In this document: positions 42,520 to 57,922 of the stretch, piece by piece
Numbering within the stretch: the stretch's first letter is position 1
Layout: every line of letters begins with the position of its first letter
Source: Streptococcus sp. DD12
Lineage (GTDB): Bacteria; Bacillota; Bacilli; Lactobacillales; Streptococcaceae
Direction: 5' to 3'
Assembly (NCBI RefSeq): GCF_001578885.1
Contig: NZ_KQ969495.1
Span: forward strand, 1-64,000
DNA length: 64,000 nucleotides
Notes under the pieces: generated by a model
Seen by the model: the letters and a program-made list of their open reading frames with translations, nothing else
What the model was told of the DNA's origin: nothing
The model's database searches: none
Translations under genes and position numbers: made by a program

Positions 42520-44300
42520 TGAAGCGTTTATTACTTTACGTTCACTTTAACCGATACAATAGCTTGAGTGACCATGTCCTCTACCAGCTGGAGCAGATGA
42601 ATCCGCTTTTTTCACGCATTGTTTTCATCTCAAATAGCCAGCTGGATGAAGCTGCCATCAATACGTTACGAGAAAGACGCTTGATTGATGAAGTGGTTCA
42701 GCGTAAAAACTCTGGTTTTGATTTTGGTGCTTGGCGTGACGGTATGGATGCGGTGGGCTGGGAACAGCTAAAAAACTTTGATTCCCTCACCATTATGAAT
42801 GACACTTGTTTTGGACCTCTCTGGGACATGTTGCCTATTTACCAAAAGTTCGAGGAAGATAATACCGTTGATTTTTGGGGCTTGACCAACCATCGGGCTC
42901 AAGGAAAAATGAAGGAGCATTTGCAGTCTTACTTCATTTCCTTTAAAAAGGAAGTGGTTTTGTCACCAGCCTTTCCTCATTTTTGGCTGAACGTTCAGGA
43001 CTTTGACGATGTTCAGGATGTGATTGACCATTACGAAACACAGGTGACGACGACTTTTGAAGAGGAAGGCTTCCGCTACAGGGCAGTATTTGATACGGTT
43101 GATGAGCCGACTGACCACATGCCACATCCGGACTTTTCTTTCTACAATACGTCAGCGATTTTGCAACACGGGGTTCCTTTTATCAAGGTCAAACCGCTAA
43201 ATGCGATACCTGAGTATACGGTTGCGGTTCTTGATTTCATTCAAAAGAATTCCGATTACCCAACAGAGCTGATTTTGCGGCATATGTCTAAGGTCTTTCC
43301 CAACACGGAAAACTACCTCCTAGCTTATAAATATGCCCAAATGGCGCCTGCCTCACCAAGCCCTAAAGCTAAGGTGGCCATTCATCTGCATGTCTTTTAT
43401 ACAGACCTCTTGGCTAGTTTTTTGGAAATTTTTGCGACCTACGACTTTGCCTATGACCTTTACATCACTACCGATAGTAAAAAGAAGGTGCCAACGATTG
43501 AGGAAGTTCTTAATCTTTACAATGCCCAGGCCGCTATCCATGTGACCGGTAATGTTGGCCGAGATGTCCTGCCGATGTTGAAACTGAAAAAGGAACTGTC
43601 CCAGTATGATTATGTCGGGCATTTTCACACGAAGAAGTCAAAAGAAGCGGATTTCTGGGCGGGCGAATCTTGGCGCAATGACCTTGTAGACATGCTCGTT
43701 CGACCGGCGGGTAGCCTTTTGGCGCAATTAGAGAAATCACCGGATTTGGGTCTCGTTATTGCGGACATTCCAACTTATTTCCGTTTTGTCAAGTTGGACC
43801 CTGCACATGAGGCGATGATTGAACCGATGATGACCAAGATGTGGAAAGAGATGGGAATGACCAAGGTTATTGATTTTAAAGCCTATTCGACCTATGTCAT
43901 GTCCTATGGAACCTTCATTTGGTTTAAGTACGATGCCTTGAAGCCCCTGTTTGACCTGGATTTGACAGAGGAGCAGGTTCCAGCAGAGCCATTGCCTCAG
44001 GGGTCTATTTTGCATGCCATTGAGCGGATGATGGTTTACATCGCTTGGGGTCAAGACTATGACTTTATCATCGCTCCCCATCCAAAACGCTTAGCGCCTT
44101 ATATTGACGTTAATTTGCTCAATACCAAGCCAAGTAATACTTTTTACCCTTGGGCACCTATTGAATTCACGCAATTTGGTGGCTTGAAAGGATCGGTCAA
44201 GTTCTTCTTCCATGCTAACTTTGGCATCCTTAAATATGTTACAAAACGTGTTTTGGCCCCTGCGCTCAGAATCTACCATAAGGTGATGCCTTTTAACTAA
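42519..44300 (+). CDS. rgpF: Rhamnosyltransferase RgpF
   Basis: 593 residues, the usual RgpF length. 'NSGFDFGAWRDGMDAVGW' (about 64-81) and 'TIMNDTCFGPLWDM' (about 90-103) mark the first rhamnan-synthesis domain. 'YVGHFHTKKSKEADFWAGESWRNDLVD' (about 366-392) marks the second. It alternates linkages in the polyrhamnose backbone with RgpB. TTAGGAG lies before the ATG, which overlaps the rgpE stop. Confidence 0.95.
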   Translation: MKRLLLYVHFNRYNSLSDHVLYQLEQMNPLFSRIVFISNSQLDEAAINTLRERRLIDEVVQRKNSGFDFGAWRDGMDAVGWEQLKNFDSLTIMNDTCFGPLWDMLPIYQKFEEDNTVDFWGLTNHRAQGKMKEHLQSYFISFKKEVVLSPAFPHFWLNVQDFDDVQDVIDHYETQVTTTFEEEGFRYRAVFDTVDEPTDHMPHPDFSFYNTSAILQHGVPFIKVKPLNAIPEYTVAVLDFIQKNSDYPTELILRHMSKVFPNTENYLLAYKYAQMAPASPSPKAKVAIHLHVFYTDLLASFLEIFATYDFAYDLYITTDSKKKVPTIEEVLNLYNAQAAIHVTGNVGRDVLPMLKLKKELSQYDYVGHFHTKKSKEADFWAGESWRNDLVDMLVRPAGSLLAQLEKSPDLGLVIADIPTYFRFVKLDPAHEAMIEPMMTKMWKEMGMTKVIDFKAYSTYVMSYGTFIWFKYDALKPLFDLDLTEEQVPAEPLPQGSILHAIERMMVYIAWGQDYDFIIAPHPKRLAPYIDVNLLNTKPSNTFYPWAPIEFTQFGGLKGSVKFFFHANFGILKYVTKRVLAPALRIYHKVMPFN

Positions 44301-44317
44301 TCATTAGGAAACTTATT

Positions 44318-46981
44318 ATGAATCGGTTTACGCAATTTTACGAAGCAGTTAAAGGGAGAAGTGCGAAAAAAATGCAGCGGACTCGGCGGTCAATACAGAC
44401 CTTTTTTCCGCGGATAAAGCGAAAAATCGAGCATTTCTCACTAAAAACATGGCTTAAAGACCAACAACAGGAAATCCTTAATAGCAAGGAGAACCTGTTG
44501 TCTTTTTGGCGTCAATTAACGCCTGCAACAGTTCTACAAATGGTGCTTGTCATCATTTTTGTTTTGTTTATTGTTCTTTATATTTTTAATCAGAAGATGC
44601 TGGTGAAGTCTGACTATGATTTGACAGTTGGCTTTCGGCAATTGAAGCAGTTCCTTCTTTTTCCTTATCTGATTTCTTTAGCGGGGATTGGGTATTTTAT
44701 CTCGCGGAACATTCAGAAAAGGTTCTTTATTCGCCTATTTTCTGGTTACGGTATCTTTCTCGTCGCGTCTTATTTTATTTATTATTCACGCAACATAAAT
44801 AACCAAGACTTTAAAGGCTGGGACCTAATTGGCAATCATTTTTTCCAATGGGATTATCTTTTGTCCCTTTTGCTTGCGATTGGCTTAGGGATTGCCTATT
44901 TTGCCCTACGAAAAAGATATGTGCATAGGCTGCGACCATCCTATGCCATGCCTCTTTTTCAACGTTATCTGCTTTCCATCCTCCTTGGCGGGGCCATGGC
45001 TGTAGATGATCGCTTGGTTTCCTTGGTTAAAGATAGCTTGGTGACAGGTCTGTCTATTGAAATTGACAGCTATGACTTTGCTGCCTATTTCTTTGAAAGT
45101 CTAGGCCTGCTCTTGCTGGTTCTTCTCATATTTTCTGGGTTAGCAAATCTCTTTTTACGAGGAATTCACGCCTTTCGACGTAATCAGACGTCCTATGCGT
45201 CGGTGGTCTGTACCAGTCTGGTATTAGGCACCTTCTTTAACTACACCATCCAGATGGGGGTTCGTAAAAGCGGGGCCATTGTTAACCGCTATGTTTTTCC
45301 TGCTGCAACGCTCTATCAAATTTTAGCCTTATCACTTATCGCACTTTTATGTTACATGATCTTTAATCGCTATTTGGAAGTGACCCTGTTTCTGATTGTT
45401 TTGGGTGCGGCGATTTCAACCATCAATGCCATAAAAGTTAGTATGCGCAATGAGCCCTTACTCTTATCTGATTTTTCTTGGGTTAAGGAAATTAACCAAC
45501 TCCTCGGTTATATTAATATTTCCATCGTACTCTATAATGTGCTTGGCTTGATTGCGGTGCTGGCATTTTATCGTTTTCTAAAAAAACATCTCTTTAAAGA
45601 CCGGGTAACCAATAACATGCTGACGCGTGTCCTCACAGCAGTAGGGGTAATAGCCATCTTTGGAACCAGTCTAAATACCCTGGCTCAGCGAAAGGGAAAT
45701 ATTATTCCTTATGGAATTCCTGTGCTTTCTCAGTTAAACAACTGGAATAATCTGGATTGGATGGGTCAGGCAAGCACTGCCAGCTATAAGTCTTTGCTCT
45801 ATGTCTGGTCAGTGGAACTGTCTTCACCCACCATGCAAAAGCCAGCCAATTATTCGAAAGCGCGGATGGAAGCCTTGGCTAAAAAGTACCAAAAACGGGC
45901 TGCTGAGATTAATGCTAGCCGCACACAAAACATCAATGATCAGACGGTCATTTTTGTGCTAAGTGAGAGTCTGGCTAACCCAGACCGTATCGCTGGCGTC
46001 ACACTAAGTAGCCAGCCCTTGCCATTTATCAATTCTGTCAAAGAAACGAGTACCGGTGGCCTTATGAAATCTGATGGCTATGGTGGTGGGACAGCCAATA
46101 TGGAATTCCAATCCTTGACGGGCTTACCTCTGTATAACCTCTCTTCTTCAATTAGCTCGGCGATGACGCAGGTGGGGCTACGCATGTCCTATGTGCCAAG
46201 TATTAGTAATTTATTTGAGAACAAGAATAAGATTGCGATTCACTTGGGAGATGGATCCACTTATTCACGGTCAGAATTCTATAAAAAACTTGGTTTTGAT
46301 ACATTTATCGCTAGGGAAAATGGGACAAAAACCTATAAGGATACGGATGCCCTGCCGGGCGGTACTTTCCCAAGGGATGCGGCAACTTATGATGCCGTTC
46401 TTGACAATATCAATACGAACCAAAATCAATTTTTCTCAGTCATTACTTATCAGAATCACACGCCGTGGACATATACTGGTGACAGTGATATTAGTGCGTC
46501 AGATGCCAATTTGGATCCGGGGCTCAACAAGGTACTGGACACCTATACGAAGTTGATTAACCAGACCGACCAAGAAACGCAGACCTGGTTGAGTCAATTG
46601 TCCCAAATTGATAAAAAAATCACGGTTGTCTTTTATGGTGACCACTTGCCAGGGTATTACCCAACTTCAGTCTTTTCAAGTAATCCGGGAAGTCAATATC
46701 AGACGGACTATTTCATCTGGAGCAACTACGAGACGCCTAAGTTGGACTACCCTTATGTGAATTCTAGCGATTTCCCTGCAGAACTTTTAGCAGTGACGCA
46801 ATCCAAGGTTTCTCCCTATTATGCACTTCTAACGGATGTGCTTAATAATGCCAGTGTGGACAAGGGAGAGTTGGATGCCAGTCAAAAGGACATTAGCGAA
46901 GATCTGAAGTTGGTCGAGTATGACTTGACCACTGGTGACAATTACCTGACTCAAGATAGCAATTTCTTTAAAGTGGAGTAG
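44318..46981 (+). CDS. sccH: SccH/GacH-like glycerol-phosphate transferase (LtaS family)
   Basis: 887 residues. After a basic N-terminus come about ten to twelve membrane segments (about 72-475), then an extracellular sulfatase-like domain with 'VIFVLSESLANPDRI' (metal ligand Glu), 'GYGGGTANMEFQSLTG' (about 587-602) with the catalytic Thr of the LtaS type, and 'VFYGDHLPGYYP' (about 769-780). GacH and SccH put glycerol phosphate on the polysaccharide side chain. Its place right after rgpF matches the S. mutans order. Confidence 0.85.
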   Translation: MNRFTQFYEAVKGRSAKKMQRTRRSIQTFFPRIKRKIEHFSLKTWLKDQQQEILNSKENLLSFWRQLTPATVLQMVLVIIFVLFIVLYIFNQKMLVKSDYDLTVGFRQLKQFLLFPYLISLAGIGYFISRNIQKRFFIRLFSGYGIFLVASYFIYYSRNINNQDFKGWDLIGNHFFQWDYLLSLLLAIGLGIAYFALRKRYVHRLRPSYAMPLFQRYLLSILLGGAMAVDDRLVSLVKDSLVTGLSIEIDSYDFAAYFFESLGLLLLVLLIFSGLANLFLRGIHAFRRNQTSYASVVCTSLVLGTFFNYTIQMGVRKSGAIVNRYVFPAATLYQILALSLIALLCYMIFNRYLEVTLFLIVLGAAISTINAIKVSMRNEPLLLSDFSWVKEINQLLGYINISIVLYNVLGLIAVLAFYRFLKKHLFKDRVTNNMLTRVLTAVGVIAIFGTSLNTLAQRKGNIIPYGIPVLSQLNNWNNLDWMGQASTASYKSLLYVWSVELSSPTMQKPANYSKARMEALAKKYQKRAAEINASRTQNINDQTVIFVLSESLANPDRIAGVTLSSQPLPFINSVKETSTGGLMKSDGYGGGTANMEFQSLTGLPLYNLSSSISSAMTQVGLRMSYVPSISNLFENKNKIAIHLGDGSTYSRSEFYKKLGFDTFIARENGTKTYKDTDALPGGTFPRDAATYDAVLDNINTNQNQFFSVITYQNHTPWTYTGDSDISASDANLDPGLNKVLDTYTKLINQTDQETQTWLSQLSQIDKKITVVFYGDHLPGYYPTSVFSSNPGSQYQTDYFIWSNYETPKLDYPYVNSSDFPAELLAVTQSKVSPYYALLTDVLNNASVDKGELDASQKDISEDLKLVEYDLTTGDNYLTQDSNFFKVE

Positions 46982-46984
46982 AAA

Positions 46985-48772
46985 ATGAAAAGAAAACAAC
47001 ATAAACATCAGTGGCTAAGTAAGGGCTATATGCCCTACTTGGTTTTAGCTGCATTCTCACTGGTGTTCACCGGTTTAAACTATGTGGTGGCCAATACCAG
47101 TAGTCAGATTTATGACTATCCCTTTCACTTGGCTCGTATCGTTGGTTTGGCCAATTCCATTTCTCATGGGGATTGGTTGCCAAACTTAAATGATATGTAC
47201 AACCGAGGCATTGGTTATGGTGTGCCCATGTTTTACGGCAATTGGCAGTTTTACCTACCAGCTTTCGTATTTCTATGGACTAAAGTAGCGACCCTTGCTT
47301 TTTCCAGTTACGTCTTTTTATTGACGCTGTCATCAAGCTTTTCTGCCTACTGGTCAGTTAAGAAAATCACAAACAGCACAAATCGTGCCCTTTTATTCTC
47401 ACTTGTTTACCCAACCCTGATTCCTTATTACGGGTTTGGCATGACGGCTGTTGTGCCATTTATTCCGCTCCTTTTTTACGCCATCTATAAGGTGCTCTAC
47501 CTCGATAAGAAAAATCCTGTATTGTTGGGTGTTGTCATTGCTTTATTGGTGCAGACACACATCATTTCAACCATAGTATTGGCAATTGCCAGCGGTCTGT
47601 TTGTTCTCCTCAATCTGAAAAAATGGACCCTGCAAAAGATGATTTCCTTTGCCTTGTCGGGTGTCATTTCTATCCTTTTGACGCTTGGCTTCATCTTCCA
47701 GTATTTGGAACAAAGCCGTTCTCAAACTTTCTTTGTTAACTGGAAACTTAGAGATTTTCCCTTCCCGACAGTGACAGTGATGAGTTCGTCGAATCTTTGG
47801 GAAATTATCCAGGCCTATACCTTCCCCTTGGCCCTCGTCTTTTTGCTGGCGCTGATTCTTCTTTTCAGACAGCTTAATCAGCTTTCAAAACAACTGGTTT
47901 TGGTGTCCACAATTTTACTCTTGGCCTCTTCAAGCCTCCTGCCTTGGGATATCTTGCGCCACACCTCCTTGGCAGTCTTTCAGTACACGCATCGTTTGAC
48001 CTATTTCCTCCCTATTTTTGTCATGATGGCCCTCTTTATCTCGGGGAAAAAGCTTGTCGTATTAGTATTGGCTAGCATCCAAGTGATTTATTTCGCCTTA
48101 GTTTTCCCCTTGAGTTTTTTACCATCAGCTTCAAACTACAAAGATTCCTTCGGACTCGTTGCGAGCAATATTGAGGTCATGCGGGGGATGAATGCCAAGG
48201 CTGTCCAAGTTTTCACCAACCCTTACGACAATGAAGTCACCTTTGACACATCTGGAGATGAGTATTTTAATTTGGATACCAACCATGAAAATGCCCGTAA
48301 CGGTCAATTCAATCAGTTCCAGTATGATGGCCAAACGGTGGCGGTGACTAACATTCATAAAACTTACAATAATTTAGAGTTTGATGTGACGCTCCCTAAG
48401 GGAGTGACACAGGCAGAGATTGTTTTACCGAAAATGTGGTATAAGGGATATGCCGTCACTTACTCTAATGGCGCTAGCGGTAGCCAAGTCAGTCAGAAAT
48501 CGCAACCTTTAACTGCAGAAGAAGAAAAAGCTTATCAAGAGGTGGAGAAACCTAAAGTAACTAGTAAGGTTCTCTATGATGGCCGTGGGGTGATTGATGT
48601 GACCTCAAGCGGTCATGTGAAAGTCTTTTATCAGAAGACAGCTACGCAGATAACTGGATTTGTCCTTGAGATTTTAGCTTGGTTAGGCCTGATCACTTAT
48701 AGTGTTTTGTTTACCTTCAAAAATCGTTCAAAGAAATCGACAGCAAAAACGGTCGCTTCTACAGAAGCTTAA
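46985..48772 (+). CDS. sccM: SccM-like GT-C membrane glycosyltransferase
   Basis: 595 residues with about twelve membrane segments. The first loop contains 'YDYPFHLARIVGLANSISHGDWLP' (about 40-63), whose DxxFH pattern is typical of GT-C enzymes that use lipid-phosphate sugars. A beta-rich extracellular domain lies near residues 400-560 and a last membrane segment follows. In the S. mutans order this gene attaches side-chain sugar from an undecaprenyl-phosphate donor made by the next gene. Here that next gene is frameshifted, so this enzyme may lack its donor. The assignment rests on gene order and topology. Confidence 0.72.
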   Translation: MKRKQHKHQWLSKGYMPYLVLAAFSLVFTGLNYVVANTSSQIYDYPFHLARIVGLANSISHGDWLPNLNDMYNRGIGYGVPMFYGNWQFYLPAFVFLWTKVATLAFSSYVFLLTLSSSFSAYWSVKKITNSTNRALLFSLVYPTLIPYYGFGMTAVVPFIPLLFYAIYKVLYLDKKNPVLLGVVIALLVQTHIISTIVLAIASGLFVLLNLKKWTLQKMISFALSGVISILLTLGFIFQYLEQSRSQTFFVNWKLRDFPFPTVTVMSSSNLWEIIQAYTFPLALVFLLALILLFRQLNQLSKQLVLVSTILLLASSSLLPWDILRHTSLAVFQYTHRLTYFLPIFVMMALFISGKKLVVLVLASIQVIYFALVFPLSFLPSASNYKDSFGLVASNIEVMRGMNAKAVQVFTNPYDNEVTFDTSGDEYFNLDTNHENARNGQFNQFQYDGQTVAVTNIHKTYNNLEFDVTLPKGVTQAEIVLPKMWYKGYAVTYSNGASGSQVSQKSQPLTAEEEKAYQEVEKPKVTSKVLYDGRGVIDVTSSGHVKVFYQKTATQITGFVLEILAWLGLITYSVLFTFKNRSKKSTAKTVASTEA

Positions 48773-48794
48773 TTTTTGAAGAAAGGAGTCGTCT

Positions 48795-49720
48795 ATGCAA
48801 ACTTTGTCAGTCGTTGTACCTTGTTATAACGAAGAAGAGACCATTTACCCTTTTTAGCGGCTTGTCAGCTAGTTGAAAAAGAGTTGGCAAATGACCTGCA
48901 ATTTAGCTATTATTTTGTGAATGATGGGTCCAAGGATGGGACCTTGCAGGTACTGCGCGAAGTCTCTCAGGCTTATCCAAATGTGCATTACCTATCGTTT
49001 TCACGAAATTTTGGTAAGGAGGCAGGACTCTTGGCTGGTCTTGAGGCGGCAGATGGAGACTTGGTTACTGTTATGGATGCAGACTTGCAGGACCCACCAG
49101 AGTTGCTCAAGGAGATGTACGCCAAAATCCAAGAGGGCTATGATGTGGTAGGAACCCGTCGTAGTGACCGCAAGGGGGAGCCAGCTATTCGTTCCTTCTT
49201 TGCCAAGACCTTTTATTGGCTCATTAATAAAGTGTCAGATACGGAAATGGTGGACGGAGCGCGTGATTTTCGCCTGATGACGCGTCAGGTCGTCCAGGCC
49301 ATCTTGCAAATGCATGAGGTCAATCGCTTCTCCAAGGGTCTTTTTTCTTGGGTAGGTTTTAAGGTGACCTATGTTGCCTATGAGAACCAAGAGCGAGTGG
49401 CAGGAGAGACTTCTTGGTCTTTCTGGAGTTTACTTCGCTACTCCATTGACGGATTTATCAATTTTTCCGAAGTCCCTTTAAAATTAGCGACATGGTCAGG
49501 TGCTCTTGCCTTTGTGATTTCTCTAGTGAGCATTTTATTTATCATTATTCGAAAAATCACGGTTGGTGGTAGTGTAGCCGGTTGGCCAAGTCTAGTGTCC
49601 ATCATTCTCTTTATCGGTGGCATTCAGCTGTTGGCGCTCGGCATCATCGGGAATTACATTGCTAAGATTTTCCTGGAAACCAAAAAACGTCCCGTCTACA
49701 TCGTCAAAGAACGTGGCTAG
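48795..49720 (+). pseudogene. sccN: SccN/GtrB-like polyprenyl-phosphate glycosyltransferase, frameshifted
   Basis: GT2 enzyme of the DPM1/GtrB class that makes a lipid-phosphate sugar donor. Good GAAAGGAG and ATG 48795 give MQTLSVVVPCYNEEETIYPF and then TAG at 48855. One extra T in the T5 run 48851-48855 would restore the frame into 'LAACQLVEKEL' and the whole remaining protein (ORF to 49720): 'YYFVNDGSKDGTLQ', 'FGKEAGLLAGLEAADGDLVTVMDADLQDPPELL', and two C-terminal membrane segments. All later motifs are intact, so the lesion is recent, phase-variable, or a sequencing error. Confidence 0.9.
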
Positions 49721-50087
49721 GGATTTGAGAGTGAAAGAGGTCACAAGCTTTTTTCAGGTCGAAGACACAAATCATATGTGAACTCTTGTCAATGTAGAGC
49801 GAAGTTCTAGAAAGAATCAAGAGATTCTTTCTTTTTTGATGACGAAGCAGTAACAAGTTTGATTTTGAAGCTCTCAAATAGGCCCTAGGTTGATGAGATG
49901 TTAGAAGCGTCTGAGATGACCCATTCGCTGAATCAAACAGGAGAATTTTCTAGTCACCATTTGATAGACCATACTCGATGAAGGAACTGAAAGATTGCTT
50001 CTCGGATGAGAGTGAGTTCACCGCCTGATGTCAGTTGCATTCATAGAATGTCCTGTCATTCCTCTTATCACAGAAAGAGATAATTAG
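49721..50087. other. Gene-free spacer between sccN and the island
   Basis: No coding sequence that I can support on either strand, apart from short open stretches that end quickly. It holds the sccN terminator (49810-49837). Because it stands directly before the left 87-bp repeat, it may be the original upstream DNA of the HAD gene now at 57122. Confidence 0.4.
49810..49837 (+). terminator. Terminator of the rgp-scc operon
   Basis: GAAAGAATC and GATTCTTTC form a perfect 9-bp stem around AAGA, then six T. Confidence 0.9.
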
Positions 50088-50174
50088 TTTAGGCATTGAC
50101 TTGCACGGCTCACTTGTTTTTGTCTCCCTTGAAAGGAAAAGGTTAGATGGTATGATTAAATTGATAGCAACAGA
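50088..50174 (+). repeat. Left 87-bp direct repeat (truncated HAD 5' copy)
   Basis: Matches 57058-57144 at 85 of 87 positions. It contains the ribosome site and the first codons of the Cof-type HAD gene (MIKLIATE), after which the sequence diverges and reads GIR and stop (TAA 50188-50190). So the left end of the island carries a truncated start of the gene that is intact at the right end. Confidence 0.92.
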
Positions 50175-50211
50175 AATCGGAATAAGGTAATTGATACAAT
50201 AGAATAGAAAT

Positions 50212-50246
50212 AAAGCCTTGGAATAAGCTGTTTCCAAGGCTTTTTT
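50212..50246. terminator. Terminator between the left repeat and rgg
   Basis: AAAGCCTTGGAA and TTCCAAGGCTTT form a perfect 12-bp stem with a T run on the plus side. The A run on the other side could also serve the minus-strand rgg. Confidence 0.85.
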
Positions 50247-50344
50247 ACTGTCTTTAACTAGAAGCGAAGGGTTGTTAGAATTACTTAGATTCTGCGGGCA
50301 TACTCTTGATTGGTATATCGTTAAAAGGTAGAGAACGATTTCAC

Positions 50345-51196
50345 TTATTCCCTGTTAACTAATGTATCAAAATGTTCAGTGTAATGTGATTTTAACTTGT
50401 CTTCTCCTAAAATATCAAGCACCTGTATGGCCTGTCTCATCTTTTCAATTCCAGTACCTGATTGGCGCTTAAATTCAAAGTAACCCGTTGCATAGAGAAA
50501 AACTGTCTGCTCATAAAAGTTTAATTCACTATCTAATAGTGCTTTTATCTCACCAATTAAATAAGAGCAATTTGAAAATTCCCCCTTATCTATACTAAGG
50601 ATTAAACAATTGATAGCAAGCTGAGAGACAACCCGCTTATTAGTTTTATTGAGAGATGAGTAAATGCTGTTGTTTAACATTTCTTTAGTTAATAAGAAGT
50701 AGGAGTTGTAGTTAATTGTGCGTACACAGTTACCTAATAAAGTAATTTCATAGTATCCCCAGTTTTCCACTTTGAAAAGATAGTCTGTCAGTTGAAGAAG
50801 CTCTTCATCAGATGGGATGATGCTCGAATCTATTGTGTGTAAAATGGATTTTACCATTGTTTTTTCAAACGAATTGAGAGTGTAATTAGAACTATCGGAA
50901 AGTAGGCATGCAATATTATTGAAATTTTGTGAAGAATATTGCTTACGGATGTATTGTACTAGGTCGCCAAATGATTTGGTTTTGGTGCAATTTTCATCAT
51001 ATAAAATAAGAAACTCATCTAAAGTAATGTGTAATTTATCTAAAATATTGATGAGCCGAATACACGATATCTCTGATTCTCCACGCTCAAAACGAGAGAT
51101 TTGTGATTTTGAAAGGTGTTCGTCAGCTAGAGAACACAGGCTAATTTGTTTTCCTTTACGGACTTTTCTAAGAGTGATTCCAAGTTTTGATTTCAT
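50345..51196 (-). CDS. rgg: Rgg family pheromone-responsive transcriptional regulator
   Basis: 283 residues, the usual Rgg size. The N-terminal helix-turn-helix (about 8-62) includes '[27 protein letters not shown]', nearly the canonical Rgg2/Rgg3 opening. The rest is an all-helical TPR-like domain that binds a short hydrophobic peptide. Divergent to the shp gene across an 80-nt region with a 42-bp palindrome, the arrangement of S. pyogenes rgg2/shp2 and rgg3/shp3. Whether it activates (Rgg2-like) or represses (Rgg3-like) cannot be told. The most likely targets are shp and the NRPS-MFS genes downstream. Confidence 0.93.
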
Positions 51197-51223
51197 ATTT
51201 TTCCCATTTTCCCAACAAAAATG

Positions 51224-51265
51224 CTTTCAGTTTTTGTTTATTGTACAATAAATAAAAACTGAAAG
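51224..51265. promoter_or_regulatory. 42-bp palindromic operator with divergent -10 elements
   Basis: The 21-bp half CTTTCAGTTTTTGTTTATTG(T) at 51224-51244 is the inverted repeat of 51245-51265 with one mismatch. Its centre GTAC is shared by two TACAAT elements, 51244-51249 on plus (for shp) and 51245-51240 on minus (for rgg). The site lies 11 nt before the shp start and 27 nt before the rgg start, so one bound dimer could govern both. TTTCCCA repeats sit just to its left. Confidence 0.8.
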
Positions 51266-51276
51266 GAAGTCCGAGC

Positions 51277-51348
51277 ATGAAGAAAATTTCAAAATTTTTA
51301 CCGATTTTTATTTTGGTGATGGATATTATTATCATCGTCGGTAGATAG
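51277..51348 (+). CDS. shp: Short hydrophobic peptide (SHP) pheromone precursor
   Basis: 23 codons. The peptide begins MKKISKFLPIF and ends with the octapeptide DIIIIVGR before TAG. GGAAG (51265-51269) lies before the ATG. The N-terminus is basic and the body hydrophobic, as in SHP precursors. From memory S. pyogenes SHP3 begins the same way and ends DIIIIVGG, so this peptide differs at the last residue (AGA Arg for GGA Gly). Known SHPs are processed by Eep, re-enter by the Ami/Opp permease and bind Rgg. None of those genes is in the window. Confidence 0.92.
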   Translation: MKKISKFLPIFILVMDIIIIVGR

Positions 51349-51823
51349 TATAAATAAGTGTTGTAGATTGGTAGACTAGTTCGCAGAATGCAAATATTGT
51401 GTTGTGTAATTAAAAATTTTAGTACTCATCAGTACAGATAAGAGAGTGGGACAGAAATCAGTAATTTCGTCGTATCCCCTCCTTAGTGATTTTATGACCT
51501 ATGACACCTCTACGAGTATCTTTCTCGGGAGAACTGTATTGGCGAAGTATCGTACAACTCATGAAAGTGTAAATATGTAGCCGTAATTTATATGTGTAAA
51601 TCACGTACGTCAATCAGTAAATGTGTGATTTATCTCGTGAGGCATTATTAACTTCAGGAGAAATGTAGTAACAAGGAACCTGAGATATCAGTGAAAGTCA
51701 TAGTAGTTAAGAAACTTTTGTGATGAGTAGTGGAGCGAAGGGCTAAAAAATCTGTCAACACAATTTTGTTTTCCCTAAGCCGGTCAGAGAAGGAGACAGA
51801 TACGGTGGTGTGAGAGAGGCTAG
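51349..51823. other. Gene-poor stretch between shp and the NRPS
   Basis: No intact gene seen in six frames and no clear terminator, so transcription from the shp promoter could run into the NRPS. AGAGAGTGGGACAGAAATC at 51441-51459 is the style of a dispersed streptococcal intergenic repeat, with a partly complementary ATTTCGTCGTATCCC after it. The rest looks like decayed DNA. Confidence 0.4.
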
Positions 51824-52036
51824 AAACTAGACTCTACTCTATTAGAAGATGGTAAATACTATTTTCATGGTTTTGAAATTAATGTAAATGGTGTCAATAG
51901 ATTTGTTCTTCGATACAACAGTGGAAATATCAATCTTACCGAAGTCGAGTTAGAAGATGCTGTAAAATATATAGAAAAGATTGGGAAGGAGGTATCTAAT
52001 GAACAAAATCGATCTAGTAATGAATTATCTGAATAA
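51824..52036 (+). pseudogene. C-terminal remnant of an unknown gene before the NRPS
   Basis: Open frame of 70 codons following TAG 51821 with no ATG, GTG or TTG start. It reads EDGKYYFHGFEINVNG, then 'FVLRYNSGNINLTEVELEDAV' and 'YIEKIGKEVSNEQ', with normal protein composition, and runs 38 nt into the NRPS gene, whose ribosome site lies within it. It looks like the tail of a gene that lost its 5' part. Family not recognised. Confidence 0.5.
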
Positions 52037-55000
52037 AGAAAAAATTTCGGGTACAAAAATATTTTACGGAAGCTGTATCGAAAATCATTCCAATACAAAA
52101 GATGTTGATGTTTGCATTATTACTAACAAAGTTGTTGATGAAGAGTTTTATGATAGATATCGACAATTTCTCATTGATAATAAACTTGTTATTGATGAGG
52201 AAATAAGATATAAGGATAAATTATTCTTGAGTGAGAGTAAGATCGAGTCTGCTCTTGAAAGTTACAGTAATCAATCTGAAGACTTTGACTTAGAAAACGA
52301 TTATAGAGATGTCGTTAATAGGCTAATTATTAACATATTTACGACCAAAGTAAAATTATTTGATGATGATGAAAATTATGAGGAATACAGTAATAGAGCT
52401 TGGAAAGAAGTTTTAGAGAGGTTTCGAAATTTTGGAGGAAAAACGTTTTCAGATTTTATTAAAATCTTTAAAGTTAATTGGGATTACAAGCAATATTGGG
52501 GGTATTCTCCAAAAATTATTAAAGATTTATATCATAGATTCTATCAATATCATTCGGAAAGTGAATTTATTAGGTTGTTAAAGACTAATGTAATCAAACA
52601 TCCTCAAAAGATAGCTGTTTACTCAGAAGCGAAGAACCTTACTTATGAGGAACTAGATAGATTTTCAGATAATGTGGCTGATTCATTGTTAAATTTTGAA
52701 TCAAAATATGTAGTTGTGAATTACTCTCATACTTATGAACTTCTGCCAATAATATTTGGAATATTGAAATCTGGGAAAGTATACATTCCAGTAGATAATA
52801 CTAGCCCTGTAAAAGAAATTGAGTTAATTAGGAAAAAATTTCCTGATAGTATACATATTAGTGAAGTTGAATCTGATCTGGACATACCAAAGATTTTCAG
52901 TTCTAATCACAGAATAGTGAATTATCAAAAAAATAAGTTAGCATATATTATACATACCTCTGGCACGACAGGAGTTCCTAAAGGTGTTTGTGTAACAACA
53001 AGCAATTTAAATTATATTATGAGAGCTTGCCAATCGTTTGCGCCGGTATCTATTAGTGATTGCTACTTATTTTCTACAAGAACGACTTTCGATGTTTCAA
53101 TAACAGAAATTTTTGGCTTTTTATACAATGGAGGAAGTGTCTATTTATTTTCTGTAAAAAACAAGAACTTTTATAAAGAATTACCAAATATAATTAATAA
53201 ATTTGCTATTACTCATGTTGCCTTGTCTCCATCAATACTAGGGGTATTACTTAAATATAGTAATGAAATCGGATTACAGTATATTAATCAGTTGAAATAC
53301 CTGTTAATCGCAGGAGAGGAATTTAAATATGAATTACTAAAAATAGCTGAAGAAAAGTTAAAAAAAGTAGATGTATTTAATGTATATGGCCCAACTGAAA
53401 CAACAGTTTATGCGACCTATTTCAATGTTAGGGAGATAAGTGAATCTTTTAGATTAAAAAATATAGTACCTATTGGAAAACCTTTACCAGGAGTCGAGAC
53501 ACTAATTATTGATAATGAATTATTGATAGGTGGCCAAGGTGTAGCGGATGGCTATTATAATGATGTCATTCAGACGGAAAAGAAATTTACAAAAATTAAT
53601 GGTAGTATTTTTTACCATACAGGAGACATAGTAGAGGAATCGAATTCGTTACTTGTTTATAGAGGGAGGCAAGATAGCCAAATACAACTTTACGGTATAC
53701 GTCTAGAATTAGGAGAAATTAGGACTTCTATTGCACAAATAATCAATGATTCCCAAAGAGATCTTGAAGTCATTTTTGATAACAATATGCTGATACTGTT
53801 TTATACAGGTGATAAAATAAATAATATCAGAGAGATGTTGGAGAAGGAGATGATTTCTTATAAGATACCTTCTAAATATATCAACATTGAGGAGTTTCCT
53901 TTAACTTCTAATGGTAAAATCGATAAGAAATTACTGTTAGAAAAAGTTACAAGTAATGAAATCAGAAATCATGAGGAAAACAATATACGTGCTATAGTAC
54001 TCAATGTAGTAGAATCGGTTATGCAGCAGCAGATAAAACCTGATGAAAATTTATTGGATATGGGATTGAATTCTCTAAACTCTGTGGAAATTATATTAGA
54101 ACTAGAAGAGCGGTTGAATATTGATTTAGGCAGTCTAAATCTTTATGTAAATTCATCAATAGAAGAAATGACAAAGTTTATAGAAAAATCTCAGAAACTG
54201 TCTAGCGTAAAGGTAACTTCAATTGTTGAACCTAAAATAGAATTAAAAAATAATCCAATAATAAGAAATGTTGAGTATAGATTTCCAACTTTTTTCTATG
54301 CTAGAATATATAATGCATTAAATTTTGATAGTCAGTTAACGGGAAAAATTTATCTAAGAAAAGAACAGATAAGTTATGAAGAAATATACCATAAACTTTC
54401 CAAAATTGAGGTATTTAAGTCGGTTTTGTCGAATGACTTGAACTATTTTGAGGTTCTAGATACACCAATCAACATTTCTAGAATTGAAATCAGTGATGCA
54501 CGGCTGGATATTTCTGAGGAATTACGTAATCTAGTAAAGAACAGTAAGGAAAACAATGGTCTCTTGTATAAGTTTGTTCTTTTTGAGGATGAAAATGAGT
54601 TAGTTCTTCACTATTCAATTGATCATAGTATATGCGATTCATCTTCGATAGATGCATTGGAAAGATATCTTCTTGGCATCAATAATCTAAGTAAAAATTA
54701 TTCTTCCTATATCAAAGAAGTCCATTCTAGGAATAAAATAGATGGACTTCTGAGGGAGGTTGAGAGATTCGATTTACAAGATGATGAAAAAGTATCAGGA
54801 GTTTTAGTTGGTATAAACGATAGAGTAAATTTCACAACTCTTAACTATTTAAGTACTGAAACTAGAAATGTATATGTTGAAATTCTTCTATTTTTAAGAG
54901 ATAAATTTTTGAAACAGTATCAATTGGATAATGTTAAGGTCAATCTGATTTATAATATACGTAAATTTAACGAAGCTTTAGACTTTACTTCGACTATAGG

Positions 55001-55370
55001 TGATTTACATTTAGGTTTAACATACAATCTTAATCTTAATGATGATATAGAGGAAACTTTGGAAGAACTAATAAATTTTTATAAAGAAAATATGTTTAAC
55101 CCCAAAGCGATTGGTTACAAGAATTTTCCGAATATTGGTTTGGATGAAAAGAAAATTGTAAAGTGTTTTGATGATACTGTCTTTATTTCCGTCGACTATT
55201 TGGGGGTGGTGTCAAGAAAAGAATTTGAAAAGACTAAACAAATTACTTCTGAAATAAATAAGGAAATAAAAAAACTAAATGGTCATAAAATGAACATAAC
55301 GGCATATATCGTTGATAATAAACTTGAAATAATCTTTTCGAAACAATTTGAAAAGGAGAAGTATGAATAA
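51999..55370 (+). CDS. Single-module nonribosomal peptide synthetase (NTase-like, A, T, C)
   Basis: 1123 residues from ATG 51999, preceded by AAGGAGGT. Residues 1-180 carry a nucleotidyltransferase-like G24-S25..D35-x-D37 pattern. The adenylation domain (about 190-650) has TSGTTGVPKG (320-329), TFDVS, YGPTE (463-467), TGD, 'YRGRQDSQIQLYGIRLELGEI' and NGKID. The carrier domain has 'LLDMGLNSLNS' with Ser692 as the phosphopantetheine site. Residues about 740-1123 look like a condensation domain, with HYSIDHSICD (871-880) in place of HHxxxDG and 'STIGDLHLGLTYN' later. It probably activates one amino acid and condenses it with an unknown partner. AT-rich and low in host-like codons. Overlaps the MFS gene. 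Likely controlled by Rgg/SHP. Confidence 0.88.
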   Translation: MNKIDLVMNYLNKEKISGTKIFYGSCIENHSNTKDVDVCIITNKVVDEEFYDRYRQFLIDNKLVIDEEIRYKDKLFLSESKIESALESYSNQSEDFDLENDYRDVVNRLIINIFTTKVKLFDDDENYEEYSNRAWKEVLERFRNFGGKTFSDFIKIFKVNWDYKQYWGYSPKIIKDLYHRFYQYHSESEFIRLLKTNVIKHPQKIAVYSEAKNLTYEELDRFSDNVADSLLNFESKYVVVNYSHTYELLPIIFGILKSGKVYIPVDNTSPVKEIELIRKKFPDSIHISEVESDLDIPKIFSSNHRIVNYQKNKLAYIIHTSGTTGVPKGVCVTTSNLNYIMRACQSFAPVSISDCYLFSTRTTFDVSITEIFGFLYNGGSVYLFSVKNKNFYKELPNIINKFAITHVALSPSILGVLLKYSNEIGLQYINQLKYLLIAGEEFKYELLKIAEEKLKKVDVFNVYGPTETTVYATYFNVREISESFRLKNIVPIGKPLPGVETLIIDNELLIGGQGVADGYYNDVIQTEKKFTKINGSIFYHTGDIVEESNSLLVYRGRQDSQIQLYGIRLELGEIRTSIAQIINDSQRDLEVIFDNNMLILFYTGDKINNIREMLEKEMISYKIPSKYINIEEFPLTSNGKIDKKLLLEKVTSNEIRNHEENNIRAIVLNVVESVMQQQIKPDENLLDMGLNSLNSVEIILELEERLNIDLGSLNLYVNSSIEEMTKFIEKSQKLSSVKVTSIVEPKIELKNNPIIRNVEYRFPTFFYARIYNALNFDSQLTGKIYLRKEQISYEEIYHKLSKIEVFKSVLSNDLNYFEVLDTPINISRIEISDARLDISEELRNLVKNSKENNGLLYKFVLFEDENELVLHYSIDHSICDSSSIDALERYLLGINNLSKNYSSYIKEVHSRNKIDGLLREVERFDLQDDEKVSGVLVGINDRVNFTTLNYLSTETRNVYVEILLFLRDKFLKQYQLDNVKVNLIYNIRKFNEALDFTSTIGDLHLGLTYNLNLNDDIEETLEELINFYKENMFNPKAIGYKNFPNIGLDEKKIVKCFDDTVFISVDYLGVVSRKEFEKTKQITSEINKEIKKLNGHKMNITAYIVDNKLEIIFSKQFEKEKYE

Positions 55371-56571
55371 AGTAAAGGCTAATGTAAAACTGCTAGTGAT
55401 GAGTAGAATGATATCACGTATTGGAGACATTATGTTTGACTTTGCGAATAATACTTTTCTTGCGGGTTTACATCCAACGTCACTATCATTAGTTGCAGTA
55501 TATCAGTCACTAGAAAGTGTGATAGGTGTTCTATTTAATTTGTTTGGTGGGGTTATTGCTGATAGCTTCAAGCGGAAAAAAATTATCATTGGAACTAATA
55601 TCTTATGTGCTATTGCTTGTATAGTTCTTTCGTTCATATCTCAACAACAATGGTTGGTTTATGCTATTCTCATTACCAATGTAATTTTGGCTTTTATGAG
55701 TGCTTTTTCTGGGCCGTCCTACAAAGCCTTTACGAAAGAAATTGTGAAAAAAGATCAAATAACAAAATTAAATTCTTACTTGGAGACTTCTAGTACAATT
55801 ATTAAAGTAACAGTTCCTCTGGTAGCAATTTTCCTATGTAGTATATTGGGCATACATGGTGTATTATTATTAGATGGTTTCTCGTTTCTCATTGCTGCCT
55901 TGCTGATTTTCTTGATTGTACCCATTAATGAAGAAGTGGTCACAAAGGAGAAAATGACAATAGGTGGAGTCTTTGGCGACTTAAAAATAGGGTTCAAGTA
56001 TGTATACAGCCATAAGCCAATATTTATGATTATCGCACTCTCTGCCTTAGTTAATTTTTTTCTAGCAGCTTATAATTTATTGTTACCTTATAGCAATCAA
56101 ATGTTTGGAGAAATATCAGCTGGGCTTTATGGAACATTTTTAACAGCAGAAGCAATAGGTGGATTTATTGGAGCGATATTAAGTGCTTTTGTCAATAGAT
56201 CTTTATCAAGTAAACGTTTAATGCTCCTTTTGGCGTGTTCGGGTATTATGTTAATGCTATCTACTCCGCTTTATTCTATCTTCCACAATGCCATTGTTCT
56301 AGCCTTGTCTCCAGCTTTGTTTAGTCTATTTCTATCTATATTTAATATCCAATTTTTCTCCATTGTTCAAAGAGATGTAGATAATGAGTTTCTTGGTAGA
56401 GTCTTTGGAATCATTTTTACGGTAGCAATACTTTTTATGCCTATTGGTACTGGCTTTTTCTCGGTAATATTAAGTTCTAGTAATACATTTAATCTTTTTA
56501 TTATTGGTGCGTCTATTACGGTATTATCACTGGTCTTTGGAAGGTTGTTCAAGAGATATGATATGACTTGA
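55363..56571 (+). CDS. MFS exporter, EntS-like
   Basis: 402 residues from ATG 55363 (AAAAGGAG upstream). Its start lies inside the last codons of the NRPS gene, so translation is coupled. About twelve membrane segments. 'MSRMISRIGDIMFDFANNTFL' (about 14-34) and the loop 'FGGVIADSFKRKKIIIGTN' (about 64-82, MFS motif A) are typical of the drug/siderophore exporters that accompany peptide synthetases. It probably exports or gives immunity to the NRPS product. No terminator is evident after it. Confidence 0.88.
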   Translation: MNKVKANVKLLVMSRMISRIGDIMFDFANNTFLAGLHPTSLSLVAVYQSLESVIGVLFNLFGGVIADSFKRKKIIIGTNILCAIACIVLSFISQQQWLVYAILITNVILAFMSAFSGPSYKAFTKEIVKKDQITKLNSYLETSSTIIKVTVPLVAIFLCSILGIHGVLLLDGFSFLIAALLIFLIVPINEEVVTKEKMTIGGVFGDLKIGFKYVYSHKPIFMIIALSALVNFFLAAYNLLLPYSNQMFGEISAGLYGTFLTAEAIGGFIGAILSAFVNRSLSSKRLMLLLACSGIMLMLSTPLYSIFHNAIVLALSPALFSLFLSIFNIQFFSIVQRDVDNEFLGRVFGIIFTVAILFMPIGTGFFSVILSSSNTFNLFIIGASITVLSLVFGRLFKRYDMT

Positions 56572-56590: not shown

Positions 56591-56698
56591 CTAAGTAAAC
56601 GGCCTGGAAGTGCTGATTCCTGTTTTTTGCTTAAGCTTGGTTTTGGTCCAACCTTTATCAATAAGAAGTTTCCATAATTTATTGTAGCTAAACTTCAT
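56591..56698 (-). pseudogene. Truncated XRE-type helix-turn-helix gene
   Basis: 35 codons: ATG AAG TTT opens 'MKFSYNKLWKLLIDKGWT' and continues 'KTKLKQKTGISTS' before diverging to a stop. The start is that of small XRE regulators often found with mobile or restriction-modification genes ('SYNKLWKLLIDK..TKTELxxKxGIST'). The second half of the domain is missing, so it is a remnant. It overlaps the end of another minus-strand fragment by ATGAAGTTTAG. Confidence 0.6.
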
Positions 56699-56828
56699 CT
56701 GAGTCTTCTTCGGATGGAGCAGACTCTTTTAAGTAAGCCTCGTTTTGTTCTGATAGTGCAGTGATTGTAGCTCTTAGTTTAGAGTTGTTAAGTGACTTTC
56801 CAACCTCTATATCCCAAGAACTAGGATT
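56688..56828 (-). pseudogene. C-terminal fragment of an unknown gene upstream of the HTH remnant
   Basis: 46 codons open after an in-frame TGA (56831-56829), reading NPSSWDIEVGKSLNNSK, then 'LRATITALSEQNEAYLKESA' and an acidic end. Normal protein composition and the coupled overlap with the HTH start suggest the two were once an operon. Not recognised. Confidence 0.45.
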
Positions 56829-57045: not shown

Positions 57046-57057
57046 AGAAGAAGTTAT

Positions 57058-57144
57058 TTTAGGCATTGACTTGCAGAGCTCACTTGTTTTTGTCTCCCTT
57101 GAAAGGAAAAGGTTAGATGGTATGATTAAATTGATAGCAACAGA
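57058..57144 (+). repeat. Right 87-bp direct repeat (5' end of intact HAD gene)
   Basis: Partner of 50088-50174 (85 of 87 identical). The two mismatches are adjacent, near 57076 (GCAGAGCT here, GCACGGCT at left). The repeat covers the leader, ribosome site and first eight codons of the HAD gene. Confidence 0.92.
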
Positions 57145-57922
57145 CATGGATGGTACCTTTTTAGATGACAGGGGTTCCTATGATAGGGAGCGACTTGGCC
57201 GGCTTTTACCGGAGCTTGCCAAGCGAGATATCATTTTTACTGTGGCTAGTGGGCGAGCGCTTTTGGCTGTGGATAAGCTCTTTGAGCCTTTTCGCGATCA
57301 GATTGCTGTCATTGCGGAAAATGGTTGTGTAGCCAGCTACCGCGACCAGCTTCTCTATGAGCAGGCCATGGCGCCAGAACTCTATCTTAGCTTGGTTGAC
57401 CTTTTACAGGACAACCCTTATAGCACGGGAAAAGAGGTGCTTTTGTCTGGGCGTCAGGGCAGTTATCTGCTAGAGTCTGCTCCACAGTCCTATCGGGACT
57501 TTATGCAACTCTACTATGAAAATATCCAAGTGGTGTCTGATTTTTCTCAAGTAGACGATGCGATTTTGAAGTTAACGACGAACTTTGCAGCCAGTCAAGT
57601 GGCGCAAGGCGAAGCCTGGCTCAATGAGCAGTGTTCGGCGATTACAGCTGTGACGACAGGCTTTGAATCACTCGATATCATTCCCCGTGGTGTAGACAAG
57701 GGCTTTGGGCTCCGTCATCTCTGTCAAGAACTAGGTATCAGTACAAAAGAGGTGATGGCATTTGGGGATAATCTCAATGACCTGCAAATGCTAGAAGAAG
57801 CAGGCTTAGCCGTGGCTCCGACAAATGCACGGGATGAAATCAAGGCTGTCAGTGATTACATTATTGGGCATCACAAGGAGGGCTCGGTGCTAGATTTTAT
57901 TGAAAAAGAGGTATTGGCATGA
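57122..57922 (+). CDS. Cof-type HAD-IIB phosphatase
   Basis: 266 residues from ATG 57122 (AAGGAAAAGG upstream). The frame extended to 57071 only adds leader sequence. Nucleophile motif 'ATDMDGTFLDD' (about 6-16), motif II 'FTVASGRA', cap domain in the middle, 'PRGVDKGFGL' (Lys) and 'VMAFGDNLNDLQML' (metal Asp). It hydrolyses an unknown phosphometabolite. It is followed at ATGA overlap by a paralogue and then ftsY, the usual streptococcal trio. Confidence 0.92.
   Translation: MIKLIATDMDGTFLDDRGSYDRERLGRLLPELAKRDIIFTVASGRALLAVDKLFEPFRDQIAVIAENGCVASYRDQLLYEQAMAPELYLSLVDLLQDNPYSTGKEVLLSGRQGSYLLESAPQSYRDFMQLYYENIQVVSDFSQVDDAILKLTTNFAASQVAQGEAWLNEQCSAITAVTTGFESLDIIPRGVDKGFGLRHLCQELGISTKEVMAFGDNLNDLQMLEEAGLAVAPTNARDEIKAVSDYIIGHHKEGSVLDFIEKEVLA

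Follow-up and report, generated by a model that had tools for sequence, protein, structure and literature searches.

The locus described here is a cassette of an rgg regulator gene, an shp pheromone gene, a single-module nonribosomal peptide synthetase (NRPS) gene and a major facilitator superfamily (MFS) exporter gene in Streptococcus sp. DD12 (assembly GCF_001578885.1); the stretch analysed, called the window below, comprises positions 1 to 64,000 of contig NZ_KQ969495.1. Two described systems stand close to it. One is an insert of ~9 kb in serotype 3 pneumococci, with ~30% GC and near-perfect direct repeats on its flanks, whose site is the 5' end of a Cof-type HAD gene (PMC10165594). It holds an Rgg-family gene and gadA, to which the legend of Fig. 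1 in that paper adds an MFS gene and a nonribosomal peptide synthase (PMC10165594). According to the text of the same paper, such inserts occur in S. pneumoniae GPSC83, the S. constellatus locus is syntenic, gadA-like genes are found in S. agalactiae and L. delbrueckii (PMC10165594, Garcia 2023), and 6 of 22 L. delbrueckii subsp. lactis strains carry an incomplete gadA (PMC10165594). The other is the S. pyogenes qim operon, which is described as being under Rgg2/Rgg3 and SHP control and is tied to a GlcNAc-ribitol (N-acetylglucosamine-ribitol) modification of the wall and to macrophage suppression (PMC13059722); qimH is reported to be required for this suppression, while qimJ is not (PMC8262891). 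For the chemistry considered below, the glidonins offer a described case of condensation domains joining a carrier-bound residue to a free amine (PMC10587159).

The island and its lost decarboxylase

The window cassette lies in the same kind of site as the pneumococcal inserts. Two 94-nt direct repeats, 96% identical to each other, bracket the segment: the left copy (50084..50177) is a partial duplicate of the HAD gene 5' end and marks the island boundary, while the right copy (57054..57147) lies at the 5' end of the HAD gene itself, which is intact there (PF08282, 1.9e-52). By eye, the two copies match both forms printed in PMC10165594. Between 50 and 57 kb the GC content falls to 0.289-0.350; outside this stretch it is 0.418-0.503. 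Going by the text of Garcia 2023, the window and the published inserts have the Rgg, NRPS and MFS genes in common, and the same HAD 5'-end site, direct repeats and low GC. They differ in that the inserts carry gadA, whereas the window decarboxylase is deleted down to its tail, beside a group II intron scar. The window element, a horizontally moved rgg-shp-[decarboxylase]-NRPS-MFS island in a HAD-gene slot, is a deletion derivative rather than an intact member of the rgg-gadA-NRPS-MFS insert type; we have hardly any doubt about either its identity or the loss of the decarboxylase.

The cassette is not a unique find, as inserts with rgg, gadA, NRPS and MFS genes are in print at the same site (PMC10165594) and qimH and qimJ are described relatives (PMC13059722). 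Nor is it an intact pathway, given the deleted decarboxylase and the intron scar in the operon leader; a reading of the sequence alone had noticed neither of these in the gap between shp and the synthetase, and had likewise overlooked the low-GC island and the kinship with qim. The island type has been published in a different light: Garcia 2023 terms the gene a putative glutamate decarboxylase and, as far as its text was considered here, gives the synthetase no role, and the words 'quorum' and 'SHP' are absent from its main text. New here are the deletion variant, the link to qim and a testable mechanism.

What is left of the pyridoxal phosphate (PLP) decarboxylase gene is its last ~62 codons (51824..52009, plus strand), recognised by their match to the decarboxylase of an orthologous locus, L109. 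The remnant is 61% identical to L109 and 67% to two further orthologous loci, L110 and L112, with E values of 1e-19 to 2e-21 in the search of the window; the matches to the latter two begin at 51839, and the first codons of the remnant may be intron. The genome has 0 matches to PF00282, a family detected in 11 of 14 control genomes. On the plus strand lie the remains of a group II intron, a 5' part (51564..51742), 69% identical (182 columns) to what precedes the reverse transcriptase in the related locus L064, and a 3' end of the same kind (51802..51843), with 34 of 42 nt the same as the stretch after the L064 reverse transcriptase gene. The Rfam group II model RF01998 scored below threshold on the scar (19.6 vs 35 bits). 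The simplest history is that an intron inserted into the decarboxylase gene and that a deletion then removed most of both. Elsewhere in the genome, no copy of the 475-nt leader stretch was found beyond a 27-nt piece; this piece (51440-51466) recurs at C1:555586 and 557265, ~1.7 kb apart, and in L025, and is probably a small dispersed repeat.

Orthologs were sought in a collection of 84,980 species with two exact peptide patterns, a scan that orthologs without those patterns would escape. It gave eight loci, four of them orthologs with 62-68% identity; the other four matched in the adenylation (A) domain only, at 23-26%, and were dropped. The orthologs belong to a Pasteurellaceae metagenome-assembled genome (L109), a Lactobacillus metagenome-assembled genome (L110), L. 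delbrueckii DSM 20074 (L112) and Atopobacter (L111). A PLP decarboxylase lies directly upstream of the synthetase in three of the four: L109 has an intact 476-aa decarboxylase (PF00282, 2.3e-29), a full synthetase and an MFS gene in succession; L110 has a decarboxylase C-terminus, synthetase and MFS gene; and L112 has a divergent rgg, the decarboxylase as two open reading frames (ORFs), and then the synthetase, running as far as the end of the contig. Because of this arrangement, an amine is the likely acceptor of the synthetase. The intact L109 operon (L109:6584-12624), which comes without rgg, has Pasteurellaceae-type, Gram-negative neighbours by eye; either the operon moved into a Gram-negative host, or the contig was misassembled or wrongly binned.

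The synthetase and its terminal domains

The synthetase gene (51999..55370, plus strand) reads without interruption from its ATG over 1123 codons. From the ORF, Pfam matches and motif alignment, the protein consists of an orphan domain (residues 1-188), an A domain (~190-650), a carrier (T) domain (~660-735, with Ser692) and a condensation-type (C) domain (~738-1123, with H876xxxD880 and G1001D1002xH1004). Pfam finds AMP-binding at residues 196-520 (8.7e-47) and PP-binding at 670-728 (7e-10), and nothing of weight in the first ~190 and last ~390 residues; no thioesterase or reductase family is among its matches up to E 1. Motifs A3, A4, A5, A7, A8 and A10 and the carrier Ser692 are all kept, so that the A and T domains of an NRPS module are present with their core motifs. 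In these respects the sequence-only reading of a complete 1123-residue A-T-C synthetase, with A-domain motifs, carrier serine and neither thioesterase nor reductase, is borne out, and the A-T-C architecture supports its view of a single module that releases its product by means of an outside nucleophile; the extra domain at residues 1-188 had escaped it.

Across 13 family members, Ser692, Asp880, Asp1002 and His1004 are invariant, while His876 is found in 10 and Arg988 in 12. The ten pocket residues of the A domain, placed by motif anchoring and GrsA numbering, read DVTALAVVYK and are the same in the window, L109 and L110 synthetases. We know of no published specificity code that fits this string, and claim no substrate for the A domain. 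For a phosphopantetheinyl transferase the genome offers a single match, an ACPS-family gene, so activation of the carrier would rest on it. Compared with L109, the synthetase has a dN/dS (nonsynonymous to synonymous substitution ratio) of 0.139 at a dS of 1.5, a value that speaks to long-term selection only; dN/dS was calculated for the whole gene, the N and A domains, the MFS gene and the decarboxylase tail, with synonymous sites saturated in most L110 rows and in the MFS rows. Phage, plasmid and viral collections hold no close relatives of the synthetase, any matches there all being below 60% identity.

The C-terminal third of the synthetase looks like a divergent condensation-type domain, judged from motif and profile likeness. 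The window motif is DHxxxDS, compared with HHxxxDG in L105. With hhalign, the domain family aligned with three segments around HHxxxDG from locus L107 at 96.2% over 379 columns, with HxxxD in register. A seven-row profile of the C-terminal domain matches the PF00668 domain in a 3166-aa NRPS of L107 at 2.0e-8; in the order it matched 10 of 395 genomes, our own included, and three of the matches are in ORFs longer than 3100 aa. These likenesses are in keeping with the condensation-like C-terminus of the sequence-only reading, while the Pfam model itself, PF00668, has no match in the window synthetase. A hidden Markov model of 13 members likewise had no match to the L107 synthetase, though the seven-row profile had matched it, and the window domain alone, searched in 284 genus genomes, found itself and one chance-like match with stops, and missed the wider family; these three results count against the assignment. 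A structure of the C-terminal 386 residues predicted from seven sequences reached a pLDDT of 40.6, too poor to argue from. In a member of a different family within the order, locus L105 (L105:2020-6065) holds an A-T-C-like synthetase with the motif HHSIADG, encoded divergently from an Rgg of 54% identity.

Residues 1-188 carry a GS-x9-DxD motif that does not vary between the window and the three orthologs in which the domain is retained. The motif fits a nucleotidyltransferase; this identity was rejected, as PF01909 and PF18765 (NTP_transf_2 / Polbeta) have no match there. Neither Pfam (best E 0.034) nor the PDB (best E 0.16 and 0.029) gave a convincing match, and in 398 genomes of the phylum the domain was found at E <= 0.001 in its own genome alone. 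Weak matches, at E up to 0.1, occur in 26 other genus genomes (27 of 284 with our own) and look like chance; of nine such places inspected, one is thioesterase-like by eye. The N-terminal 204 residues, predicted from one sequence, gave a pLDDT of 51.4, again too poor to argue from, and residues 1-188 are left as an orphan domain. The Atopobacter ortholog (L102:5803-8907, the same record as L111) begins in the middle of this domain after a strong ribosome-binding site, and residues 1-92 seem dispensable there.

A proposed aminoacyl amide and its rivals

We propose that the ancestral enzyme loaded one amino acid and released it onto the amine made by the decarboxylase, giving an aminoacyl amide for export, a reading that we rank first among those considered and regard as evenly balanced. 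At high cell density the pheromone would activate Rgg, which by analogy with known Rgg/SHP pairs would open the shp promoter and the operon behind it. The PLP decarboxylase would convert an amino acid into an amine, and the A domain, from what is known of its family, would load one carboxylate, probably an amino acid, onto Ser692. The condensation-type domain, through His876, would then join the loaded residue to the amine, and the aminoacyl amide thus released would leave the cell through the MFS protein. In DD12, where no more than the last ~62 codons of the decarboxylase survive, the synthetase would have to use another amine or nucleophile, or may be recently orphaned. That the product is an amide we would neither favor nor disfavor, and the prospects of the window synthetase being still active appear to us equally good and bad. 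The described systems with related chemistry, the glidonins (PMC10587159) and rhabdopeptide-type products (PMC6195595), are multi-module peptides with a terminal amine, as far as those reports describe them, whereas the window has one module, a divergent C-type domain and a pheromone switch.

Comparison with qim points to a possible different product. The cluster of locus L021 runs in the order shikimate dehydrogenase, xylose-isomerase-like TIM barrel, F420 ligase, GFO/IDH-type oxidoreductase, S-adenosylmethionine synthetase, a protein with just a weak P-loop match, GT2, A-T protein, UDP-glucose dehydrogenase and MFS, which fits the order of qimA-J in Table 1 of PMC13059722 (where qimF is given as a phosphoenolpyruvate carboxykinase). 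The window resembles qim, as far as it is described there, in its SHP2/3-type switch, its A-T-C protein (qimH is called a 'truncated NRPS module') and its MFS-type gene in last place (qimJ). However, qim carries eight further enzymes and the window holds homologs of H and J only, not the ten-gene set; moreover, the window synthetase is just 28-31% identical to the three qim-type enzymes aligned, and the qim-type enzyme lacks residues 1-188. Judged by gene order and family, the window locus is a distant cousin of the qim operon.

An alternative of limited probability is envelope decoration, in which a QimH- or Dlt-like enzyme loads its aminoacyl group onto a precursor, be it a sugar, an alditol or lipid-linked, and the MFS protein acts as flippase for that precursor, not as exporter of a free compound. 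The window MFS protein is 74-80% identical to those of four qim-type clusters, the A domain scores 201-213 bits with DltA models, and in the accounts cited, qimH is needed for immune suppression, the operon for the GlcNAc-ribitol modification, and qimJ is assigned homology to a lipoteichoic acid flippase (PMC13059722). On the other side, the low identity of the synthetases and the absence of the other eight qim genes both tell against it, the DltA scores stay below the NCBIfam cut-offs (476 and 559.85 bits), qimJ is dispensable for suppression (PMC8262891), and a decarboxylase in three of four orthologs suits an amine acceptor better. About as doubtful, and overlapping with our proposal, is that the synthetase is a dying remnant, left without substrate by the loss of the decarboxylase and not yet broken. 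The genome holds no second PF00282 gene to replace the deleted one, and the loss looks recent because the decarboxylase tail, at 61-62% identity to L109 and L110, is close to the neighbouring domain (65-68%). Moreover, of 13 wider-family loci, four (L024, L063, L073 and L071) have a synthetase that is split or short, or have none. Set against decay are the 1123 open codons, the kept A, T and HxxxD residues, the pocket shared with L109 and L110, and the Atopobacter locus, which retains synthetase and MFS gene without a decarboxylase. Very unlikely, in our view, is an A-T-E enzyme whose C-terminal epimerization domain makes a carrier-bound D-residue for an unseen partner. Foldseek, run on the poor C-terminal model, gave seven matches at E <= 0.001, all NRPS epimerization or AmbB T-C structures (best 4.1e-4, TM-score ~0.2), the best two being epimerization domains, and a YLG near residue 1067 resembles the FNYLG motif of such domains; yet the first glutamate of their EGHGRE motif has no acidic counterpart in the hhalign alignment, and the cassette holds no partner NRPS. 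Least probable of all is a siderophore-type pathway with an EntS-like exporter: EntS is indeed second among the NCBIfam matches of the MFS protein, but at 71.3 bits against a cut-off of 324, and the cassette holds rgg, shp, synthetase and MFS gene only.

Several observations weigh against the proposal of an exported, pheromone-gated amide itself. The Atopobacter locus has synthetase and MFS gene alone, without a decarboxylase and without residues 1-92, so the enzyme may do without the amine. In L109 and Atopobacter no Rgg gene adjoins the synthetase, and L112 showed no intact shp. The decarboxylase scores well short of every NCBIfam cut-off, and qim, as described, is tied to a wall glycan and not to an excreted amide. 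The window locus joins the separately reported gadA inserts of pneumococcus and L. delbrueckii with the qim operon and its unexplained 'truncated NRPS module'; should the aminoacyl amide proposal hold, the 'glutamate decarboxylase' of the inserts would be a biosynthetic enzyme feeding the synthetase, and the qim NRPS would be a member of a single-module enzyme family that can be assayed in vitro.

Pheromone switch, exporter and the slot between them

The rgg gene (50345..51196, minus strand) encodes 283 aa and matches the NCBIfam model RGG_Cterm at 201.6 bits (cut-off 36.9); it is the sole match to that model in the assembled genome at E <= 0.001. Divergent from it, the shp gene (51277..51348, plus strand) encodes MKKISKFLPIFILVMDIIIIVGR and scores 53 bits with the SHP2/SHP3 model (cut-off 38). 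Its predicted pheromone end, DIIIIVGR, differs in the final residue from the DIIIIVGG given for S. pyogenes SHP3 (PMC13361665). Between the two genes lies the divergent promoter region (51197..51276), with a TTCCCATTTTCCCAAC box and a TATTGTACAATA palindrome, as judged from an alignment of 19 upstream stretches. The box was seen by eye in 17 of these and is absent from L025 and L070, which have distant Rggs. With up to 2 mismatches allowed it arises by chance in 31 of 100 window shuffles, while the chance expectation for the palindrome is 0.05 occurrences. Both family models above cut-off, divergent genes and a common promoter box make this an Rgg/SHP pair. A consensus scan found no terminator-like site on the plus strand from 50243 to 56571, the stretch between shp and synthetase (51349-51999) included. 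The sequence-only placement of the synthetase downstream of an SHP gene, in the same direction, with no terminator between and behind a pheromone switch, is confirmed as to gene order and promoter type, and by analogy with known pairs the island operon is probably under pheromone control.

The exporter gene (55363..56571, plus strand) encodes an MFS protein of 402 aa (PF07690, 1.1e-27) and shares 8 nt with the end of the synthetase gene; this overlap had been read correctly, while the likeness to EntS is weak, given the low bit score above. In plasmid DNA, the search gave one record, from Enterococcus, with a 65.8% MFS match. Across the genus, an MFS gene of at least 67% identity is present in 20 of 284 genomes, our own included. 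The ORFs around it were read in all 20, some stretches being ended by contig ends; payloads were partly named by eye, and payload families were tested for the genes of L021, L026, L063, L064, L065 and L072. Seven carry a qim-type payload (one of them, G044, without an H ORF in the list), two an A-T-C synthetase with NUDIX (one split), two a radical SAM protein with ATP-grasp, and three no payload; the others, one each, are the window type, a NUDIX-like fragment without synthetase, a D-Ala-D-Ala-ligase-like ATP-grasp, a HAD-like protein with a 411-aa protein, an ABC protein with ATP-grasp, and a Rossmann/GalE-like set whose MFS gene has a stop. A start-anchored Rgg of at least 59% identity accompanies 14 of the 20, and a motif search found SHP in 9 of these 14. 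Genus-wide, it is mostly the switch and the exporter that are conserved, and the genes lying between them that vary.

The window MFS protein is nearest (89%) to that of a payload-less locus, and 61-73% identical to those of the synthetase orthologs. A first MFS tree of 21 rows had firm support at just 2 of 18 inner branches. In a 19-row tree, from which two long rows were left out and whose groups had been set by gene content before the first tree, a single clade of the four synthetase-linked MFS proteins was rejected (approximately unbiased test, p-AU 0.0067), as was one of the four qim-linked ones (p-AU 0.0365). Because clades by payload are rejected and the nearest MFS is payload-less, exporter and payload seem not to have travelled as a fixed pair. 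We would extend this, with the reserve due to a rather improbable idea, to a pheromone-gated slot in which Rgg/SHP and MFS stay fixed and unrelated biosynthetic cassettes are swapped via recombination in the conserved flanks. The window cassette would then be a one-enzyme amide synthetase whose condensation-type domain is new (DxH invariant, mostly as GDxH) and whose N-domain is an orphan; with its own amine-making enzyme lost, it would draw on community amines. Payload swapping behind one pheromone switch would explain how products made at high density change while the signal is kept.

In L066 (3029-4240) the MFS gene of a related locus is split by a stop, and L024 (7782-19990) holds a qimA-I-like cluster with rgg and a split synthetase and no adjoining MFS of the window clade. 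In the window, pieces 3' of the MFS gene (56605-56803) are 80-87% identical to L060, L064 and L071 and are perhaps a decayed gene, and upstream of the island (42519-49720) lie ORFs that by eye resemble genes for a surface rhamnan or teichoic-type polysaccharide.

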